Shown: positions 44,384 through 55,488, counted from the stretch's first letter. The stretch is DNA of 64,000 nucleotides from an uncultured Desulfobacterium sp. (GCA_900258555.1 LT984857.1:323795-387794); one strand, 5' to 3'. Made by a program: numbers and translations. Notes: generated from the letters alone by a model not told the origin.

Positions 44384-45310
44384 ATGGGAAATTGGTTTAA
44401 GACAGCCATACTTTTGGGTGTGATGACCGCCCTTATTGTATTCATAGGCAATCTCCTGGGTGGAAGACAGGGGATGATAATAGCCTTTATCATTGCGATG
44501 GGGATGAATTTTTTTAGCTACTGGTATTCAGACAGGATTGTCCTTCGAATGTATCGCGCGCGGGAGGTCAGTCCTGATCAGAGCCCCGAAATCTACGGTT
44601 TGGTGGCTGACATAGCCCAAAGGGCAGGACTTCCCATGCCCAGGATATACATCATTCCGGAGGATTCTCCCAATGCATTTGCAACTGGGAGAAACCCGGA
44701 GCATGCGGTAGTTGCAGTAACACAAGGGCTTATAAAACTGATGAGCAGAGAAGAGATCAGGGGTGTGATCTCACATGAAATGGCTCATATCAAAAACAGA
44801 GACATTTTAATAGGCTCTATTGCTGCGACCATGGCCGGGGCCGTGATGATCCTGGCCAATATGGCGCAGTGGACGGCCTTTTTTGGAGGCAGATCGGATG
44901 ATGAAGAAGGCGGTGGACTGGGGGCAATTGGGATGATCATCATGGCGATTGTAGCGCCTGTTGCAGCCATGCTGGTGCAGATGGCCATATCCAGGTCAAG
45001 GGAGTATCATGCGGATGCAACTGGGGCATCCTTTGCAGGACAATCGCAGGGGTTGGCCAATGCCCTGGAAAAACTGGGCGCCTATTCAAAGAGGATACCA
45101 ATGCATTCAAGCCCACAGACTTCACACATGTTTATCATAAATCCATTGAGCGCCGGCGGCATTATGAATCTGTTTTCCACCCATCCACCCCTGGAAGAGA
45201 GGATTGCAAGGCTAAGGGGCATATATCCCGGCAGAACCACTCCGGATCAGCGACCGGATTCGGATAGGGGGCTCAAGGATGCTGAGAGTTTCTGGAATAA
45301 TCTCAGATGA
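44384..45310 (+). CDS. htpX: Membrane zinc metalloprotease HtpX
   Basis: Inner-membrane M48 protease for misfolded membrane proteins. At 308 residues it has two N-terminal helices (about 7-50), the zinc motif HEMAH (His130, Glu131, His134), two further hydrophobic segments, and the third ligand in REYHADATGASF. The C-terminal PQTSHMFIINPL and FSTHPPLEERIARL are typical. It has a strong ribosome site (GAGGAG). Its stop overlaps the start of the EndoQ/UvrD gene. Confidence 0.95.
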   Translation: MGNWFKTAILLGVMTALIVFIGNLLGGRQGMIIAFIIAMGMNFFSYWYSDRIVLRMYRAREVSPDQSPEIYGLVADIAQRAGLPMPRIYIIPEDSPNAFATGRNPEHAVVAVTQGLIKLMSREEIRGVISHEMAHIKNRDILIGSIAATMAGAVMILANMAQWTAFFGGRSDDEEGGGLGAIGMIIMAIVAPVAAMLVQMAISRSREYHADATGASFAGQSQGLANALEKLGAYSKRIPMHSSPQTSHMFIINPLSAGGIMNLFSTHPPLEERIARLRGIYPGRTTPDQRPDSDRGLKDAESFWNNLR

Positions 45311-48300
45311 AATTCATTGCCGACATCCATATCCATTCCCACTTTTCCAGGGCCACCTCCAGAGACTTAACCCCTGAAAACCTTTCCCTGTGGGCACAGA
45401 AAAAGGGGATTACAGTTGTCGGCACAGGTGATTTTACCCACCCGGGGTGGCTTGCGGAGATAAGAGAAAAGCTGGTTGAGGCGGAAGGAGGCCTTTATCA
45501 GTTAAGGCCGGATCTGAAAAAAACTGTTGACAGCCAGGTCCCTCCATCCTGCCTTGGCCGGACGCTTTTTGTGCCATCAGGAGAGATAAGCTGCATATAC
45601 AAAAAAAACGGTTTGACCAGAAAGGTCCACCACCTGATCCTGATGCCGGATCTGGAGGCGGTTGAACGGCTGAATGACCGGCTTGAGCGGGTCGGAAATA
45701 TACATTCAGACGGAAGACCCATCCTTGGGCTGGATTCAAGAGACCTCTTGGAAATAACCCTTGAGGCGAGCGACAAGGCCTTTTTTATCCCCGCCCATGT
45801 ATGGACACCATGGTTTTCAGTGTTCGGTTCTAAATCAGGCTTTGATACTCTGGAAGAGTGCTTCGGGGACCTGACCGGTCATATCCATGCACTTGAAACA
45901 GGCCTTTCATCTGATCCGCCGATGAACAGGCTCCTTTCCTCCCTCGACGACTACATATTGGTCTCCAACTCCGACGCACATTCTCCTTCCAAGCTGGGCC
46001 GTGAGGCCAATATCTTTGATACAGGCCTAAACTACAAGGACTTGGTCCAGGCCATGACAGACGGCAGAGGCCTTATGGGGACGATTGAGTTTTTCCCGGA
46101 GGAAGGCAAATATCACCTGGACGGCCACAGAAAATGTCAGGTAAGACTCGATCCCGCTGAGACCATGAAAACGGAAGGGCTTTGCCCAGTGTGCGGGAAG
46201 CCTCTTACTGTGGGAGTCCTCAATCGAGTGAATCAGCTTTCAGACCGCAATGATCCAAGGCTTTCAAAGCCCTTTTTCAGCCTTATCCCACTTGCTGAAA
46301 TACTTTCCCAGATCCTTGAAAGCGGTCCCTCTACCAAAAAGGTCTCCGAGGCCTATGAAAGGCTCCTGGACAAGCTTGGGCCTGAGCTTAGTATCCTGAT
46401 GGATGTCTCCTTAGGTGATTTAGAGGCCGCAGGGGGGCCGATCCTTGCAGAGGCGATCAACAGGATGCGCACAGATAAGGTGATAAGAATCGGGGGTTAC
46501 GACGGCGAATATGGGTTAATACGATTGTTTGAGGCTTCTGAAAAACAGAAGCTGACCGGTCAGTTGGGCCTGTTTGCCGTGGAGGAAAAGAAAAAGGCCA
46601 AGACCAAGTCGGCTGTTAATCGTCCTCCCCAGGAGGAAAAACCAAAGAAGAAAGAAAAAAAGGCTGATCCTGAACTTGATGTATTGACCGATCCTATCCT
46701 TGATCCTTTAAATGAGGAGCAGAGGGCAGCCGTCTGCCATGAGGGAGTGCCCCTTCTTGTGGTGGCCGGCCCCGGCACGGGAAAGACAACGACACTCACC
46801 CATCGTATTGCATACGTTATCCGACAGGGCGTAGCACAGGCAGAAAAGATATTGGCCCTTACCTTTACCAGGAAGGCCGCAGGCGAGATGGCCGAGAGGA
46901 TTTCTAAGCTTGTAAAAGACGATGGATCAGGTGGAGTGTATGTATCCACCTTTCATGCCTTCTGCCTCGATGTCCTAAGGAAATATGGGGAGAGGATCGG
47001 CATTGACCAGGGCTTTACCCTGTGCTCCGAACCGGATTCAGAAGGTCTTATAAAAGGGCTCTTTGCTGAATCAGACGTCAAAAAGCGGGATATACAGAGG
47101 TTTGTAAAGGCGCTTCCGGAGATCAGGATCTTATCTGTTACGGGCAATAATACTCCTGTTGATCAGGAGATGGTCCGGCTTTTCGAAGGATATCAGCGCA
47201 GGCTAAGGGACATGGGGATGCTTGACCTGGATGAGCTCGAAATAGAGGTTCTGAGGCTTTTCAGGGATCATGTAGATGTGGCCGAATACTATGCAGCCAG
47301 GTTTCCATGGATATTTGTGGATGAGTACCAGGATACAAATCCGGTCCAGGTGGGCATCATAAAATGTATTGCAAGTGCTGGCCCTGTAACCCTGTGCGCA
47401 ATAGGAGACCCGGACCAGGCCATATACGGCTTTAGGGGTGCTGATGTTAAAAGTTTTTTTGGCTTTGCCGGTGATTTCCCAGGGGCCACGGAGATCCGGC
47501 TTGAGCAAAACTATCGCTCCACAGAACCAGTGCTTAAAGGTTCCGCCGCTCTTATGGGAAGGCGTAAAAGCCTTCAATGTCACAGGCAAGGGGGTGGGCC
47601 GATCTCTGTAGCCTCGTGCCAGACTGATGCTGAAGAGGCGGAAATGATTGTAGAGCAAATGGAAAGGCTGATAGGAGGGACAACATATTTTTCTCTGGAT
47701 AGCGGCAGGGTCGCGTCTCACGAGGGTGAAGAGTCTTTGTCATTGGGAGACATCGCAGTCCTTTATCGTATAAACAGCCAGGGGGATGCCCTTGAAAAGG
47801 CCCTCAATCGCGCTGGCATTCCATTTATAAGATCAGGAGAAAAACCCTTGATCAGCCGTTATCCTGTAAATGTCATATGGAGGTTTCTTCAGACTAAGGC
47901 GTATCCTGACAATGTCTTTTACAGAGATGAATACAATGGCCTGATCAAAGAAAGTGAAATTGCAAAAAGGGCGGAAGATGTTGAAATCAACGTTTCATCA
48001 TCAGTAATAACGGTGATTGAACAGGCCATCTCTTTGCATGGGTTTGATGATTCGGATAAACAATCCTCTGATGCCGCAAAACGACTGAAGGTTATGGCAA
48101 GGAGTTTTAATGGCGACCTCCCCCATTTTCTGGATATGCTATGTCTTGAAAGGGGCATAGATCATGCGGCATTAATAGGCGACAGGGTTTCACTTATGTC
48201 GCTGCATGCGGCCAAGGGCCTTGAATGGCCGGTGGTATTCATAACCGGGTGTGAAGATAGGCTGTTACCCTGCTCCCTGTTTGGAAGTCAGGATGAAGAG

Positions 48301-48513
48301 GAAGAAAGACGTTTATTTTATGTGGGGATGACCAGGGCGCAGCAGAGACTGATCCTTTCACACGTAAAAAGAAGGTCAATGAACGGCAGGGTCCTTGATA
48401 TGAAACCATCGCCTTTTTTGGAGGCGATCCCCAAGGGCCTGAAGGCCGCCTTGGATAGGGGAGGGTGGAAGGCGAAGAAGAGGCCTTATAAGCAGTTGGA
48501 ACTTTTCAGATGA
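45307..48513 (+). CDS. Endonuclease Q-like PHP domain fused to UvrD/Rep helicase
   Basis: 1068 residues, two enzymes in one chain. Residues 1-410 match endonuclease Q: PHP metal motif DIHIH (Asp6, His8, His10), VVGTGDFTHPGW, PAHVWTPWFSVFGSKSGF, SNSDAHSP, a zinc site (Cys277, CPVC at about 293-296, TVGVLNRV) and IGGYDGEYG. EndoQ nicks DNA 5' of deaminated bases. A lysine-rich linker (about 425-455) leads to an SF1A helicase: GPGTGKTTT (about 488-496), FVDEYQDTN, GDPDQAIYGFRGAD, LEQNYRST, SLHAAKGLEWPVV, RRLFYVGMTRAQ. The helicase lacks much of the usual C-terminal extension. It overlaps htpX by 4 nt. Confidence 0.88.
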   Translation: MKFIADIHIHSHFSRATSRDLTPENLSLWAQKKGITVVGTGDFTHPGWLAEIREKLVEAEGGLYQLRPDLKKTVDSQVPPSCLGRTLFVPSGEISCIYKKNGLTRKVHHLILMPDLEAVERLNDRLERVGNIHSDGRPILGLDSRDLLEITLEASDKAFFIPAHVWTPWFSVFGSKSGFDTLEECFGDLTGHIHALETGLSSDPPMNRLLSSLDDYILVSNSDAHSPSKLGREANIFDTGLNYKDLVQAMTDGRGLMGTIEFFPEEGKYHLDGHRKCQVRLDPAETMKTEGLCPVCGKPLTVGVLNRVNQLSDRNDPRLSKPFFSLIPLAEILSQILESGPSTKKVSEAYERLLDKLGPELSILMDVSLGDLEAAGGPILAEAINRMRTDKVIRIGGYDGEYGLIRLFEASEKQKLTGQLGLFAVEEKKKAKTKSAVNRPPQEEKPKKKEKKADPELDVLTDPILDPLNEEQRAAVCHEGVPLLVVAGPGTGKTTTLTHRIAYVIRQGVAQAEKILALTFTRKAAGEMAERISKLVKDDGSGGVYVSTFHAFCLDVLRKYGERIGIDQGFTLCSEPDSEGLIKGLFAESDVKKRDIQRFVKALPEIRILSVTGNNTPVDQEMVRLFEGYQRRLRDMGMLDLDELEIEVLRLFRDHVDVAEYYAARFPWIFVDEYQDTNPVQVGIIKCIASAGPVTLCAIGDPDQAIYGFRGADVKSFFGFAGDFPGATEIRLEQNYRSTEPVLKGSAALMGRRKSLQCHRQGGGPISVASCQTDAEEAEMIVEQMERLIGGTTYFSLDSGRVASHEGEESLSLGDIAVLYRINSQGDALEKALNRAGIPFIRSGEKPLISRYPVNVIWRFLQTKAYPDNVFYRDEYNGLIKESEIAKRAEDVEINVSSSVITVIEQAISLHGFDDSDKQSSDAAKRLKVMARSFNGDLPHFLDMLCLERGIDHAALIGDRVSLMSLHAAKGLEWPVVFITGCEDRLLPCSLFGSQDEEEERRLFYVGMTRAQQRLILSHVKRRSMNGRVLDMKPSPFLEAIPKGLKAALDRGGWKAKKRPYKQLELFR

Positions 48514-48515
48514 GT

Positions 48516-48781
48516 TCTCAACAGGTCATACTAATTGGCGGGCAGGCAGGGGCATTTTTTACGTGTTTGCATATTTGTGAGTCACTCCGAACATACGGCG
48601 GCTTTATACGCAATTTTTCATATGTGGGCTCGGTGAGGTTGGCGGCCGCGCAAAATATGCCATATCCGCCTGTAAGTTGCTTGAAATCATGGCCGGAGGC
48701 CTTTTTTAATTATTGCCATTGATGATGCAAACAGGTAAAAAGCGCCCCAGCCCGCCCGCCGGTTAATATGACCTGTTGAGA
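48516..48781 (+). repeat. TIR mini-element (MITE-like), copy A
   Basis: A 266-bp element with near-perfect inverted ends of about 55 bp (TCTCAACAGGTCATACTAAT at the left; the right end reads the same on the other strand), continuing into GGCGGGCAGGC, TTTTTACSTG and TTTGCAT. The core is related to 53061-53300 in inverted orientation, for example CTCCGAACATACGGCGGC and GAAATCATGGC. It starts 3 nt after the stop of the EndoQ/UvrD gene. No transposase is encoded. A 70-codon frame lying mostly within it (48510-48722) is not a credible gene. Confidence 0.75.
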
Positions 48782-48793
48782 TTCTATTATCCT

Positions 48794-48955
48794 AAAAAGA
48801 GCAGTTAGCCGTTAGTTTTTAGCTGTTAGGTAAGGGGTTTCGACATATTGACAACATCTATGGTTGCACCGAGTTGGGTGATGCAATAAATTGGTACAAT
48901 TTATTGAATTCCTTAAGCTAACGGCTGATCGCTAACAGCTAACAGCCTTTTTTAA
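48794..48955 (-). repeat. TAGCTGTTAGC-type palindromic element, copy 1
   Basis: About 162 bp with inverted ends rich in GTTAGC/GCTAAC units (AAAAAGAGCAGTTAGCCG at the left; CTAACAGCTAACAGCC then T-run at the right). On the minus strand it aligns along its length with 58213-58386, including CAATTTATTGCATCACCC versus CAATTCATTTCTTCACCC. It lies 12 nt after the TIR mini-element and just before the IscU-like gene. Shorter relics of the same end motif occur near 5585 and 55505. Confidence 0.65.
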
Positions 48956-48982
48956 GATTATAGCAAAGTGCAGGGATTTTTA

Positions 48983-49411
48983 ATGGAAGAAAAGATATTT
49001 GATTTCTGGCAGGATCATTCCCAGCAGTTTTTAGAGATGGCCTTTATGACGGAAAGGCGTGAGGTGATAGAGAGGCCGGACGGCTATGGCAAAAATTCGT
49101 CGGACTGTGGCGATACGGTTGAGATCTACATCATGGTCCGAGACGGGGTTATAACACATGCGTCATTTAGTTCTAACGGTTGCATAAACACCAGCGCCTG
49201 CGCCAACACTGTATTGCATCTCGCGGAGGGAAAGAGTGTAGAGGATGCGTGGAAGATCTCGCCCAAAGATGTAATTGATTATCTTGAAACACTACCTGCG
49301 AAAGAACACCACTGCGCAGAGCTTGCCATTGGCGCGCTTCACCGTGCATTGTCCAATTATCAGGAAAACAGGCGGGAGCCTTGGAGGAAGCTGTATTTTA
49401 CAGGGCGATGA
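48983..49411 (+). CDS. IscU/NifU-type iron-sulphur cluster scaffold protein
   Basis: A 142-residue protein with the three conserved scaffold cysteines: SDCGDTVEIY, FSSNGCINTSACAN and KEHHCAELAIGALHRAL, spaced as in the IscU/NifU N-terminal domain. It assembles Fe-S clusters for transfer to client proteins. The start at 48983 is preceded by AGGG at a suitable distance. It stands alone between repeat elements, with no cysteine desulphurase next to it. The many radical SAM and Fe-S enzymes in this genome would be clients. Confidence 0.85.
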   Translation: MEEKIFDFWQDHSQQFLEMAFMTERREVIERPDGYGKNSSDCGDTVEIYIMVRDGVITHASFSSNGCINTSACANTVLHLAEGKSVEDAWKISPKDVIDYLETLPAKEHHCAELAIGALHRALSNYQENRREPWRKLYFTGR

Positions 49412-49993
49412 GCATATACGAATTTATAGCATACAAGCCCGGATGCTTCCCTATTGACTGACTCTTCCCCTGAAACCATATTGACCGCATGCTTGATACT
49501 TCAATGACAGTTTTGTAGCTGTTGGGTTCGGGGTTGATTGGAATTATGGGACAATAAATAAATTTAGATAGGGATTGTTGCTATTACCATAAGAATACGT
49601 TATAGAATTAGGCACTTGGTTTGCGTATCGATAGTGCCAAGTAACTATTCGCTGGATGGGTAATGATTTTATTTGGAGTTCCAGATGATAACACTCTCTG
49701 TGCCGATACAGCATAGTCTTTGCTTTTTCTCAATATCCAGTAAAATTTTAACAAAGACTAGCTTTTTCTAATGAATAATTTGTTGGGCATCAGAAGACTC
49801 TGGTTTCCTGTGCCCAGCAACCGGAAGTTGGATCACTACGACTAGTGGTGACTGAGTGGTCGAACGTATTGGCTGCGGGTGTGCAGGTGGAGATATGCGT
49901 TCCCACGCAGGAGCGTGGGAACGAGTTAATACACACGGCGAAGGCCGATATGGAAGGATTCTCTTTCGTATCGCCCCGGATAATGAATCCGAA
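49412..49993. other. Gene-free stretch with repeats
   Basis: About 580 nt between the IscU-like gene and the M16 peptidase stop. No credible gene is present on either strand. It is AT-rich to about 49850, contains a loose inverted repeat GTTGGGCA / TGCCCAGCAAC near 49787-49836, and ends with the REP hairpin described separately. The 12-mer TGCCAAGTAACT near 49628 also occurs near 355; I could not tie it to a known element. Confidence 0.4.
49898..49923. repeat. REP-type hairpin CGTTCCCACGC
   Basis: A perfect 11-bp stem (CGTTCCCACGC / GCGTGGGAACG) with a 4-nt loop. It is of the CGTTCCCACGC type that is scattered in many proteobacterial genomes. It lies about 70 nt beyond the M16 peptidase stop and could protect that transcript's 3' end. 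There is no T-run, so it is not a typical intrinsic terminator. Confidence 0.65.
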
Positions 49994-52900
49994 TTACCTC
50001 AACTTAATCTCCTGATAAGGTAATGACATCTCCTTTGCCAGGTCCTTTAGATCTTGTTCCAGTGTTATGTCTCTGCGGTCCTTCTTTTTTACCTGTGTCA
50101 TCTTGTCTCCTACAACAAAGACCTGTAACTTTTTTGGATCAAGGAATCTGGCTGCCAGTGTCTCCAGTTCTTCCCTTTTTGCGCCTATAAACGAGTCCTG
50201 GATCATTTCAAGGGTGTTCAAGGGTTCCTTGCGCAGATAATAGGTGGCGTATGTCCTTACCAATTCCGCAGGGGTGTCAACGTTGAATACAAAACTGTTC
50301 AAGGCGTCAAGTCGTTTCTGTTCAAGTTCATTTGCAGGAACATCCTTCCTCAATCCTGTCATGATATTTACTGTCTCATCTATCGCGTTTCCGGTCCTGT
50401 CGGCCTTGCACCCCAAGTATCCGATAAGGATTCCGGTCTTCCAGTTGTAGATCTGGAAAAACCATCCTGAGTAGATCAGGCCCAGATCGTCCCTCAGACG
50501 CGTATACATCAGGGAATCGCTGCCGCCAAAGATATCCATCAACAAACCGATCTTCCAGTAATCCGGATTGGTGCGACCGACACTGGGAAGCATAAATCCG
50601 ACCTGAGACTGAACCTGGCCGGGTTTGTTTATCAGGGCCACGACCGGCGGGGTCTCAGGGGGTTGAGCGATGTTACGCTCGGGCGCCTGTTTTTGCGGCA
50701 GGGCCGCCAAGAGCCCTTTCACGCCATCTATCGCCTCTGACTCGTCAATATCGCCTGATACTGCAACCACCATGTTTGACGGTACAAAATAGGTCTTCAG
50801 GAATGTCTTTAAGTCATCCCTTGTCAATCCAGGTATGGTACTAAGAGCCAGGAGCGGATCACGGCCATAGGGATGGCCCTTAAAATGAAAGATCTTAGAC
50901 TCACGCCTCAACACGGCCTGGGCATCCTCCCCCTGCCGTTTAAGTGATATCATCGCCTGTTGTTTCGCTACATCAAGAATCTCCTGGTCAAACCCTGGAC
51001 TTGTCAGGATCTCTTTCAGCAGCGAAACCCCCGTCATCCAGTCATTCTTCATCACAGACATCTGTACTACTGCCTGCTCCTCTGCTATGGATGTTGTTAA
51101 CTGAATGGCATTATCATCCAAACTGGCGGCAAGTTCTTTGGGCGTGCGTTTCTCAGTGCCGCCGCGCACAAGACAGCCGCTTACCAGACTTGTAAGCCCT
51201 GCCTTTGAATCATCAACATCAACATCCCCCGCCTTTACCAGAAGAGTCAAATCAATGAGGGGCAGTTCCCGGTCAGGCAGGTAAAATGCAGTTGAGCCCC
51301 CTGCCTCTACTGGTTTTGTCTCAGGATACTCAATCTTTTTTGGTTTTCGTTCAAAGGAAAGGGGATGTCTCCAACCGGCGGGTGTCGGGTATATTGAATT
51401 ATTTACAGAGGTATCGCATTGATCGGACAGTTTTGCGGCCGAACGGCTGCCGGAGCGAATCTCTGTATATTTTTCCTGCGCAACCTCCTGGTCCCCTCCA
51501 GGGATTACATAAGTGCTCGTCTTGTTTTCCTCTACAAGATACCTGTTCGCTACATCCCTTATATCTTCCGGCGTCACCTCAGAAATCATTTCCAGATATG
51601 TTGTTATGTAACGCCAGCCTGTTTCGACCTCCAGGGTGGTCAGGGTGCCTGCCAGTTGTTCGTTGCTGCGCATCCTGTCAAGGAACGCACGCTGGTTAAG
51701 CTTTTTGACCCGGTCAAGCTCTCTTTGGGGCACAAGTTCTCCCTTGAGTCTTTCTATCTGCGCAAGGAGAATACCTTCCAGGTCTTCGCAGGCCGTAACA
51801 CACATGCTGCGCCTTTCTTCTTCACTGATTTTGGCGTCTTTTATGCCTTCAGGGTCATTGGGGGAGCCGCCGATGATGAACAGATCGCCATAACGGCTGT
51901 CCGGGTTATACCCCCAGGCCTCTACAGCCTTTCCCTTTTCAACGACTTCCTGTGTCATTCTACAGCTTCGACCCTCACTAAGTATCGCGGACAGCGCGTC
52001 GAGGGCATAAAATTGCCTTGAACCCATTTTATCCACATGAAAACCCACCCTTACCAGGGGCGTTCTCGCACCTTTTAGATACCTGATACACCTTCGCGGA
52101 CCTTGCTGCACCGGTTCTTTTGTAACCACCTCAGGGGCGGGTATTCCTTCGGGGTAGCGTTCAAAATAGATCTCCGCGAGCCTCTTTGCCTGTTCTACCG
52201 TAACGTCGCCGGCAAGCACACACACCGCATTGGTGGGGTTGTAATATCTTTTGTGGAATTCCATTGCATCCGTGGCACTGAACTTTTCCATGTCCGCCTT
52301 CCAGCCGATTACCGGGTTGCGGTAGGGGTGTGCGGTAAAGGCGGTTGAGTAAAGGTCGAGCCATGCGGCGCCATCAGGATCATTGATATACCTGAATGCC
52401 CACTCCCTCTGCACCACCTCCTTTTCCACATAAAACTCCCTCCAGGATGGCTCAAAGATCTGTTCGCTCGCTATGGAAAACCACTGCTCCAGCATGTCTG
52501 ACGGTAGGGATGCAGTGTACTGGGTCTGGTCTTTGGTGGTGAAGGCATTGATATCTACAGCGCCGTTTTTCTCCAATTGGGATGAGAATACCTGGGGCAC
52601 AAAGATCTCCTGGACCTCTGTCCTGAGATCGTTCATCTCGGCAAGCTTTGCCCGGATCAGAATCTCATCCGGGTTGCGCCTGGATTCTTCCAGGAGCACT
52701 GCCTGGTAGGCCGCCTCAATCTGTTCCTGGAGCTTTTCATCCTTTTTGATGTCAAGGCTTCCGAAGTTCTTTGTACCCTTGAACATCATGTGTTCAAGCA
52801 TATGTGCAAGTCCGGTCTTACCGGAATCTTCAAGGGCGGACCCGGCCCTGATAGCAAGCCTGACAGCGACCTGGGGGGCAACAGGACGCTCCACCACCAG

Positions 52901-53035
52901 GAACATCATCCCGTTTTTAAGATGAAATTCCTTGACGTCCAGGTGGATGTTGTCGGGTGAATTCTGACCTGCACTGGTGGTTGCAGCGACAGCCCAGAAA
53001 AGAAGACCAATTAAAAATTTTTTAAAAAGGCGCAT
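49994..53035 (-). CDS. M16-family zinc metallopeptidase (pitrilysin type), secreted
   Basis: A 1013-residue double-length M16 protein with a signal peptide (MRLFKKFLIGLLFWAVAATTSA). The inverted zinc motif HMLEH is at 78-82 in the first half. The second half, beginning near 590 (LPLIDLTLLVKAGDVDVDDSKAGLTSLVSG), has the same fold but lacks HxxEH, so it is the inactive partner, as in PqqL/pitrilysin-like chains. It probably degrades peptides in the periplasm. It lies downstream of pcrA with a mini-element between them. Confidence 0.92.
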   Translation of the reverse strand: MRLFKKFLIGLLFWAVAATTSAGQNSPDNIHLDVKEFHLKNGMMFLVVERPVAPQVAVRLAIRAGSALEDSGKTGLAHMLEHMMFKGTKNFGSLDIKKDEKLQEQIEAAYQAVLLEESRRNPDEILIRAKLAEMNDLRTEVQEIFVPQVFSSQLEKNGAVDINAFTTKDQTQYTASLPSDMLEQWFSIASEQIFEPSWREFYVEKEVVQREWAFRYINDPDGAAWLDLYSTAFTAHPYRNPVIGWKADMEKFSATDAMEFHKRYYNPTNAVCVLAGDVTVEQAKRLAEIYFERYPEGIPAPEVVTKEPVQQGPRRCIRYLKGARTPLVRVGFHVDKMGSRQFYALDALSAILSEGRSCRMTQEVVEKGKAVEAWGYNPDSRYGDLFIIGGSPNDPEGIKDAKISEEERRSMCVTACEDLEGILLAQIERLKGELVPQRELDRVKKLNQRAFLDRMRSNEQLAGTLTTLEVETGWRYITTYLEMISEVTPEDIRDVANRYLVEENKTSTYVIPGGDQEVAQEKYTEIRSGSRSAAKLSDQCDTSVNNSIYPTPAGWRHPLSFERKPKKIEYPETKPVEAGGSTAFYLPDRELPLIDLTLLVKAGDVDVDDSKAGLTSLVSGCLVRGGTEKRTPKELAASLDDNAIQLTTSIAEEQAVVQMSVMKNDWMTGVSLLKEILTSPGFDQEILDVAKQQAMISLKRQGEDAQAVLRRESKIFHFKGHPYGRDPLLALSTIPGLTRDDLKTFLKTYFVPSNMVVAVSGDIDESEAIDGVKGLLAALPQKQAPERNIAQPPETPPVVALINKPGQVQSQVGFMLPSVGRTNPDYWKIGLLMDIFGGSDSLMYTRLRDDLGLIYSGWFFQIYNWKTGILIGYLGCKADRTGNAIDETVNIMTGLRKDVPANELEQKRLDALNSFVFNVDTPAELVRTYATYYLRKEPLNTLEMIQDSFIGAKREELETLAARFLDPKKLQVFVVGDKMTQVKKKDRRDITLEQDLKDLAKEMSLPYQEIKLR

Positions 53036-53060
53036 GGTTAACCCCTCTAATGGTAATTTC

Positions 53061-53300
53061 TCAATAGGCTCGGGCAGGCCGGGGGCTTTTTACCTGTTTG
53101 CATCACCAATAACAGCAGTTACAAATAGCACAAAGCCATGATTTCGATCACCGTACAGGCGGAAAAGGCTATATATGCGCGGCAGGCAACTACATGGAGC
53201 CTGCTGCTGAAGAATTCAGCGTATAAAGCCGCCGTGTGTTCGGAGCGACTTAAAAATATGCAAAAAGGCAAAAAGCCCCCGGCCTGCCCGAACTTATTGA
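53061..53300 (-). repeat. TIR mini-element (MITE-like), copy B
   Basis: A 240-bp element in inverted orientation relative to copy A. Terminal inverted repeats are TCAATAGGCTCGGGCAGGCC and its mirror (TCAATAAGTTCGGGCAGGCC), extending through GGGGGCTTTTT to TTTGCAT. On the minus strand its core matches copy A in blocks: TTTGCATATTTTTAAGTC, CTCCGAACACACGGCGGC, TTTATACGC, CCGCCTGTA and GAAATCATGGC. It lies 13 nt after the pcrA stop and 25 nt before the M16 start, so it must be transcribed if the two form an operon. Confidence 0.75.
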
Positions 53301-53313
53301 AAAGTTACATATT

Positions 53314-55488
53314 CTAAACCTTTTCCAGATGGGTATATTTCAAGTGTAGAAGCTTTCTTCCCGCATCTCTGAAGACCACCTCGATTTTGTCATCAGCAGA
53401 AAACTTTGATACCACGCCCGCGCCAAAGGCGGGGTGCTTTACCCTGTCCCCGCGGACAAACTCAACTGTAGCGGACTGATCCTGGTTATCTACAGTCAAT
53501 ACCTTATCTGTTTTTAGATGATCACGGGCAGGACTGGTTATAGTGCCTGCAAAAAATCCCCTGTGACCCCCTGGTGATTCGTAGGATAACACATCAGAGG
53601 GCAACTCCCTGATAAATGATGAAAGTCCGGTCCTGAAGCCGGTGCCGGTCATCTGCCACACAGGAATGGACTCCTCGCCGGGATAGCAGAGAATCAACTC
53701 GTCCTTGGCGCGGGTCGCGGCCACATACATCAGCCTCCGCTCTTCCTCAAGCTCTCCCGCATTGTTGTATGACATGGCAGAGGGAAACCTCCCCTCCATA
53801 ACCCATATTATTATCACCACCCGCCACTCAAGCCCCTTTGCGGAATGGACCGTTGAAAGGGTGAGGGTGTCATTGACATCTGAGGGCTCAATGTCGGCAG
53901 GGCTTGAGGGCGGCTCCAGGGTCAGATCGTCCAGAAAATTCCTTAGCCTTTTGTAGCGCCCTGCCATTGGGATTAACTGCTCAAGGTCTTTCTGGCGTTT
54001 GGGAAAATCATCAAACCTCTCCATCAGGATGGGGGTATAATATTCCAGGACAGACTCAACCGCCTTTTGGGGACTGATGTTGTTAATGGAAATATCGTTC
54101 AAGAGTTTGGACAGCAGCTTGAGGCCGGAATCCTTTTTGCCTGCGCCGGGCCACTTTTCTATCTGGCCGGCAGTTATCCGGTTTTGTCTTATCCAGTTGA
54201 TGATTGTCTGGGTCTTTGCCTGACCGACGTTTTTTATCAGTCTTAGTATACGCACCCAGCTTACTGTCTCATCCCTGTTGACAACCACCCTCAGGTGGGC
54301 CAGGAAGTCTTTTATGTGAGCGGATTCCAGGAACTTGAAGCCGCCGTATTTAACATATCGGATCCCCTGGCGGCTGAGTTCGGCCTCCAGTTCAAATGAG
54401 TGGTACGCTGCCCGGAAAAGCACGGCTATTTCTGATACCGGAACCCCCTGATTTGTCAGGTCCTTGACGTATCTGCACACATAGAGGGCCTGCTCCGGTT
54501 CGGTCCTGGCGTCAATCACCTTAGGCCTCTGGCCCCCCTCCCGCCTGGTGAACAGGCATTTGGTGAATTTCTCACTGGCGTTGTCCATCAATGAGTTCGT
54601 GAAGGTGAGGATCGGTTGTGTGGAGCGATAGTTCTCCTCCAGCCTTATCAGCCTTGCACCTGTAAACCGGTTCTTGAACTCAAACATGTTTCTGTAATTG
54701 GCGCCCCTGAAGGAGTAAATGGACTGGGAGTCATCTCCCACTACCATGATATTCCGGTGGCCCTGGCCCAGCCAGTAGACAATGTCCGCCTGGATGGAAT
54801 TGGTGTCCTGATATTCATCCACCATGATGAACCTGTATTGTCTGCCAAGTTCTCCCCTTACATAGTCATTTTCCTTGAGCAGTCTCTGAAGATTCAGTAT
54901 CAGGTCATCATAGTCCATCAGTTGATTGGACCTCTTGTAGTCATTATAAAGGACAGCGAGTTTGCTGAACTGGGGGATGAAGTGGATGAACTGGCCATAT
55001 TCGTTTGCGACAAGCTCGTCAATCGGTTGTTGGACGTTGGCCGCCTTGCTGAGTATGTTTGCTAGGGTCTCGCGCTTGGGGAACCTCATCAGGCCCGCGG
55101 GGAGACTGAGTTCAGAAACAAGTGAGTGGATGACCGCCTCCATGTCCGAGCGGTCGAGGATTGTAAATGTGTTCCTGTAGCCCAAGACTTCGGCATGTGT
55201 CCTCAGCACCCTGTGGGCAAGGGAATGGAAGGTGCCGCCCGAGACATATGTACACCTGATATCCGACAGCCCCGCGGCCCTGTTGAGCATCTCCTGAGCC
55301 GCCTTTCTTGTGAAGGTAAGCAGCAGGATCTCCTCGGGCGCAACACCTGTCTCCACCAGGCGTGCTACCCTGTAGACCAGGGTCCTTGTCTTTCCGCTCC
55401 CTGCCCCGGCGATGACCAGCACAGGGCCCTCCAGGGTCATTACCGCCTCCATCTGGGAGGGATTTAATACGCTGTTATAATCAAGCAT
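53314..55488 (-). CDS. UvrD/PcrA/Rep-family DNA helicase
   Basis: A 724-residue SF1A 3'-5' helicase: LNPSQMEAV (Q-motif), VIAGAGSGKTRTLVYR (Walker A), MVDEYQDTNSIQ (II), VVGDDSQSIYSFRGANYRN (III), LEENYRSTQPIL (IV), STVHSAKGLEWRVV (V), RRLMYVAATRAKDEL (VI), and a PcrA-like C-terminal Tudor module (RGDRVKHPAFGAGVVSKF) that binds RNA polymerase in relatives. It acts in replication restart or transcription-coupled repair. It is a separate gene from the EndoQ-fused helicase. Confidence 0.93.
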   Translation of the reverse strand: MLDYNSVLNPSQMEAVMTLEGPVLVIAGAGSGKTRTLVYRVARLVETGVAPEEILLLTFTRKAAQEMLNRAAGLSDIRCTYVSGGTFHSLAHRVLRTHAEVLGYRNTFTILDRSDMEAVIHSLVSELSLPAGLMRFPKRETLANILSKAANVQQPIDELVANEYGQFIHFIPQFSKLAVLYNDYKRSNQLMDYDDLILNLQRLLKENDYVRGELGRQYRFIMVDEYQDTNSIQADIVYWLGQGHRNIMVVGDDSQSIYSFRGANYRNMFEFKNRFTGARLIRLEENYRSTQPILTFTNSLMDNASEKFTKCLFTRREGGQRPKVIDARTEPEQALYVCRYVKDLTNQGVPVSEIAVLFRAAYHSFELEAELSRQGIRYVKYGGFKFLESAHIKDFLAHLRVVVNRDETVSWVRILRLIKNVGQAKTQTIINWIRQNRITAGQIEKWPGAGKKDSGLKLLSKLLNDISINNISPQKAVESVLEYYTPILMERFDDFPKRQKDLEQLIPMAGRYKRLRNFLDDLTLEPPSSPADIEPSDVNDTLTLSTVHSAKGLEWRVVIIIWVMEGRFPSAMSYNNAGELEEERRLMYVAATRAKDELILCYPGEESIPVWQMTGTGFRTGLSSFIRELPSDVLSYESPGGHRGFFAGTITSPARDHLKTDKVLTVDNQDQSATVEFVRGDRVKHPAFGAGVVSKFSADDKIEVVFRDAGRKLLHLKYTHLEKV

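Follow-up and report, generated by a model that had tools for sequence, protein, structure and literature searches.

Insertion sequences (ISs) of the IS66 family have ends that start with GTAA and produce 8-bp target duplications. A bacterial MITE with IS-type ends has been described in Cardinium, where MITECca01, an element of ~240 bp, carries ISCca4/IS982 ends (PMC9769881). Template switching between inverted repeats, as described elsewhere, homogenises the two arms and yields apparent compensatory changes (PMC8794818, PMC8604942). Here we describe from an uncultured Desulfobacterium sp. a new family of MITEs of the IS66 type, apparently orphaned and ordinary in kind. The only feature of these elements that is more than routine is the covariation of the two arms within each copy.

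The analysis began with a stretch of 64,000 nucleotides (the window; GCA_900258555.1 LT984857.1:323795-387794), in which two related elements stand just after helicase genes. Element A is a plus-strand copy at 48510-48787 and has well-paired TIR arms at 48516-48572 and 48725-48781 (49/57 complementary) around a core at 48573-48724; its span comprises the paired arms and six further diverged TIR bases on each side. Element B is a minus-strand copy at 53053-53308, and its arms at 53258-53308 and 53053-53103 are 45/51 complementary. The two are 77% identical across 220 bp (E 1.6e-38 against the 5.4 Mb genome), which bears out a sequence-only reading that had recognised them as a homologous inverted-repeat pair. 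That reading had given 48516-48781 for A, which holds as the extent of the paired arms and falls short of the full span, and 53061-53300 for B, which is superseded by the minus-strand coordinates above. It had also proposed an RNA-folding check. Both elements form much stronger folds than their dinucleotide shuffles do (z -8.5 for A and -10.8 for B), a result that is due to the paired arms.

Upstream of A is an EndoQ/UvrD-type helicase gene (45307-48513, plus strand; PF00580 1.8e-72, PF13361), and downstream is a NifU-N-like gene (48968-49411, plus strand; PF01592 2.7e-20). Upstream of B is a pcrA-like UvrD helicase gene (53314-55488, minus strand; PF00580 1.9e-71, PF13361 5.1e-59), and the 5' end of an M16 peptidase gene (49994-53035, minus strand; PF05193, PF00675) faces the element from the other side. 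The two elements are indeed oriented alike relative to their respective helicase genes, as had been noticed. The gap after the pcrA-like stop is 5 nt rather than the 13 nt first read, and at A, for which 3 nt had been given, the end of the full element probably overlaps the EndoQ/UvrD stop. This TGA (48511-48513) probably lies inside the extended end of A, which reads ATGAGTTCTC and matches GTAACTTCTC of the TIR consensus at 7/10 positions. The encoded protein ends in LELFR* at A and in LELF*, one residue shorter, in the orthologue from a genome of the same genus (G001). To judge from these sequences, the last two codons and the stop of the EndoQ/UvrD gene (48504-48513) probably derive from the MITE end. 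Two further repeats were seen nearby. The first, at 48800-48955 between A and the NifU-like gene, is again an inverted repeat (GTTAGCCGTTAG...TAGCTGTTAG / CTAACGGCTGATCGCTAACAGCTAACAG) and may represent one more small repeat, and similar words flank copy c11; a palindrome at 49900-49930 of the window (CGTTCCCACGCAGGAGCGTGGGAACGAG) looks like a further dispersed repeat.

A genome-wide search, a check that had been proposed for the two elements, yielded dispersed, intergenic copies in two families. A search with A uncovered family I, to which A and B belong and which has 15 diverged copies in the 5.4 Mb genome with a core pairwise identity of 66-90%. Family II came to light in a scan for the terminal pattern GTAACTTCTCAATAAGTC and has 10 near-complete copies and additional fragments, so that the two families together have 25 near-complete copies. 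The search combined BLAST, the TIR pattern and a sequence profile, and very decayed copies may be missing from these counts. Family II has the same ends as family I, and the cores of the two are homologous over ~110 bp (the better copies match the profile with 20-30 bits, and shuffled sequences score 10.9 at best). The copies are short, at 225-286 bp, without a transposase gene or conserved ORF. One pair of family I copies lies in opposite orientation only ~90 bp apart (C1:1030134-1030407 and C1:1030499-1030769; L013). The family I profile found seven matches in G001, which are family II-like where read, but had no match among 44 further genomes of the taxonomic family; an exact-pattern scan of genome and viral contig collections with the family I core gave no match. 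Among the genomes searched, the family I and II cores occur only in this genus.

The ends are far more widespread than the cores. They are conserved over 17-22 bp (GTAACTTCTCAATAAGTYCGGG), and, when up to one mismatch is allowed, 20 of 46 genomes of the taxonomic family contain GTAACTTCTCAATAAGTC, compared with none for a reversed-pattern control. In other genera the same ends bound elements of about 100-290 bp that have unrelated cores. Among these elements (L054-L072), the copies in G052 have inner inverted repeats, GGCGCTCTCT and GATATTTGGGGTTTT, and a GC-rich hairpin is inserted in some elements and missing in others. For copies in which both ends are recognisable, 8-bp target duplications with at least 6/8 bases matching, which chance would supply in 0.4% of cases per copy, flank 9/16 copies in the present genome and 16/18 in relatives. 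Perfect duplications flank copies c7 (AAAAGCAC), d3 (ATGAAAAC) and d5 (TTTTGTAG). At A and B no target duplication can be recognised (B matches at 3/8 positions and the ends of A have diverged), so the case for their insertion comes from the rest of the family and from element-free relatives.

Autonomous elements with these ends exist in related bacteria. A relative (G042) carries an IS of 1788 bp (L101/L104) with a 24-bp TIR, GTAAGTTCTCAAAAAGTTCGGGTA, and a transposase of 533 aa that matches PF03050 (1.6e-13, 51 bits, cut-off 23.1). The same protein matches NF033517 (2.1e-30) with 106 bits, which is under the NCBI curated cut-off of 180 bits and therefore marks it as a divergent IS66 member. 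Related transposases in named MAGs of Desulfobacteraceae and other Deltaproteobacteria lie within ISs of 1.4-1.8 kb, five of which (L140, L141, L142, L143 and L153) have ends 20-22/22 identical to the MITE consensus; the L142 IS has a 7/8 target duplication. More distant cousins, whose transposases are 34-35% identical, have GTATCAKCTCAATAAATAGGGG ends, and one is flanked by a perfect 8-bp duplication; in the cousin L106 the target duplication is GTCTTTGT. The ends of the partner IS, GTAACTTCTC / GTAAGTTCTC, and the duplication length are those of the IS66 family. From the identical ends and the duplication length, we infer that an IS66-type enzyme mobilised the MITEs.

No such enzyme was found in the present genome, either as a match to the L101-type transposase at E<=1e-10 or as an autonomous partner in a TIR search. 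Because the transposase is missing from a genome that is 98.9% complete, the copies appear to be orphaned. Two other candidates were set aside. An IS66-like gene of the same genome (C3:787947) does not have these ends, and at L064 a TIR end stands beside a 351-aa ORF that is unrecognised, with no second TIR found in the piece. The searches made revealed no similarity between the MITE cores and the IS interior. We envisage that an IS66-type transposase, either once resident or supplied by a visiting IS, would have bound the element ends of ~22 bp and, by making staggered 8-bp cuts in the target, placed most of the elements between genes. Its source would since have been lost, leaving the copies to decay.

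The copies are shorter than ~300 bp without a transposase gene, have TIRs, are flanked by target duplications and share their ends with an autonomous element, which are the features by which MITEs are recognised. Given the 25 near-complete copies, the 8-bp duplications, the autonomous ISs in relatives and the absence of the element beside the G001 orthologues, we hold with strong confidence, on comparative sequence grounds, that A and B are MITEs formerly moved by an IS66-type transposase and that their helicase position is coincidental. Chance insertion of a MITE family, one of two interpretations first offered for the pair, is thereby upheld.

The arms of these elements deserve separate consideration. 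Paired arms are about 50-65 nt long in most copies and up to 63/63 complementary. Within-copy arm identity in family I averages 0.87, compared with a mean of 0.61 once the right arms are exchanged at random between copies; in family II the values are 88% and 71%, and in neither family did any of 5000 permutations reach the observed value. The perfect arms of c7 (61/61) and c8 (63/63) differ from one another at about one base in six. Since arms are matched within copies and different between copies, complementarity has been kept while the sequence changed. Mismatches between left and right arms in family I are more common in the outer part (13%) than in the inner part (5%). In copy d9 of family II (C3, L041:4023-4309) the outer arms bear no relation to the MITE ends and yet mirror each other, with 74 nt that are 96% complementary. 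No source for these replaced arms was found in G001 or G008. Recognition of the ends cannot explain the arm pairing in d9.

Possible causes of the kept pairing are selection for an RNA hairpin, selection for a DNA hairpin, and the use of one arm as template to rewrite its partner. Inward of the TIR, one arm might periodically be rewritten from its partner at the DNA level by template switching between the inverted repeats, in which case each lineage would drift in sequence yet stay a foldback hairpin. We prefer this explanation because the best copies are perfectly Watson-Crick paired without G.U steps, and because d9 has mirrored arms without transposase-binding ends. Nevertheless, we consider DNA-level homogenisation or template switching to have about an even chance of being what maintains the pairing. 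Arm mismatches are more often G.T than A.C (35 versus 20 in both families; 24 versus 13 in family I and 11 versus 7 in family II). This lean counts against template switching, and selection on RNA would give the same lean, so we regard it as suggestive and not decisive. The broader proposal, that MITE arms throughout the clan evolve in concert by being rewritten from each other on foldback, perhaps coupled to transposition, is offered tentatively, and we rate it slightly below an even prospect.

A further alternative is that the elements are a dispersed structured RNA gene, with the arm pairing kept by selection on the transcript and a functional core. The strong within-copy covariation of the arms is what such a gene would be expected to show, and the lean of arm mismatches to G.T is seen in element orientation. 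Likewise, mismatch between copies is slightly lower in the core (0.26, compared with 0.28-0.31 in the arms), and the homology of family I and II cores extends over ~110 bp. However, G.U pairs are entirely missing from the perfect arms of the best copies, most family I cores are not clearly better folded than shuffles, and RNAalifold gives only 15 core pairs. Furthermore, neither the elements in the window nor those at four further loci are matched by an Rfam covariance model, and the same ends surround unrelated cores once the genus that holds the family I and II cores is left. We therefore view an RNA gene as improbable.

The second interpretation first offered for A and B was a mobile 3'-UTR or terminator-like unit tied to helicases, which would stand after the stop, end or stabilise the transcript and be retained by selection. 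Both copies in the window do lie 0-5 nt past the stop of a UvrD-family gene in the same orientation, both fold strongly, and B has three terminator-like matches where 0.5 are expected. In A, however, the terminator-like score is near chance; incidental transcript termination is accordingly possible, to judge from such matches, in B. The distribution of the copies speaks against such a unit. Only A and B (2/15) adjoin a UvrD-family gene in family I, and 13 copies do not. Of the four UvrD-family genes in the genome, an element adjoins only the two within the window; none of the listed copies is near the others (C1:325097 and C1:2432750). Neighbours elsewhere are unrelated to helicases and include genes for hydantoinase B, UvrC and SecA, the ROK family, phosphoglycerate mutases (PGM), adenylate kinase, Lgt, Slp and radical-SAM proteins, as well as unassigned genes. 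A tabulation of copies against gene ends, which had been suggested as a check, shows 3'/3', 3'/5' and 5'/5' intergenic gaps with copies in either orientation; this speaks for a MITE, and a unit that follows genes would not be expected between divergent (5'/5') ones.

Comparison with relatives leads to the same result. In G001 the EndoQ/UvrD orthologue is 84% identical, and the NifU-like gene begins ~22 nt past its stop with no element between the two. The 144 bp that could be inspected downstream of the PcrA orthologue of that genome (86%) are likewise free of the element, and neither A nor B was seen after the orthologous helicase genes of G008. Because no element follows either helicase orthologue in G001, neither A nor B is a conserved 3' part of its helicase gene, even though the elements may have been lost in G001 instead of gained in the present genome. 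We consider the helicase-linked unit refuted and give it very little residual probability: that A and B each stand behind a helicase gene is a coincidence.

It had also been noticed that the core can be read as a shared short frame (M-I-S...QA...A-R) broken in copy A. A further reading takes the core as a short protein-coding gene (M-I-S...QAEKAI...). Most family I copies show the frame, and in family II the same strand holds a comparable QAEKAI stretch, but there is no conserved ORF: the frame runs for 6-57 codons and is broken at differing places (28 codons in A, 57 in B, 6 in c4 and 12 in c12), so we reject a coding core, to which we assign a negligible likelihood. We give equally little credence to the elements being REP/REPIN-type palindromes mobilised by a RAYT, a Y1 tyrosine transposase, instead of an IS66 enzyme. 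Intergenic, hairpin-forming, multi-copy elements would fit this reading, but it is contradicted by the element length (250-290 bp), the 17-22 bp TIRs common to ISs encoding an IS66-type DDE transposase, and the 8-bp duplications, since REP/REPIN elements move without target duplication.

We believe that these findings are of value beyond the locus itself. An apparent helicase-linked regulatory element is settled as a mobile repeat, and both the likeliest type of mobilising transposase and autonomous ISs in related bacteria can now be named. A family-wide MITE clan has been described in which one set of ends is combined with genus-specific cores. The results also urge caution in RNA discovery, where strong covariation can stem from events at the DNA level in a mobile palindrome. 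Should concerted arm evolution prove general, a functional RNA could not be taken as proven by arm covariation alone in dispersed bacterial repeats.

Among known systems, the elements are most readily compared with IS66-family ISs (PF03050 / NF033517; L101, L140-L143 and L153), with which they share 20-22/22 bases of terminal sequence in named examples and the 8-bp duplications. Unlike these ISs, they are MITEs without a transposase, and their paired arms are 50-63 bp, compared with an IS TIR of 22-28 bp. IS-derived bacterial MITEs such as MITECca01 (PMC9769881) are similarly short and non-coding, have IS-like ends and need a transposase in trans, although MITECca01 belongs to another IS family, and the copies described here are old and diverse, with a parent IS gone from the genome and long covarying arms. 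REPINs and REP palindromes (PMC3116915, PMC3733652) are likewise intergenic, non-autonomous hairpin repeats, whereas the present elements are much longer, are flanked by target duplications and have an IS partner of the DDE type. Finally, template-switching homogenisation (PMC8794818, PMC8604942) predicts perfect arms and multi-base paired changes between lineages; the published cases concern RNA genes and coding DNA of yeast, whereas the extension to MITE arms is our proposal.
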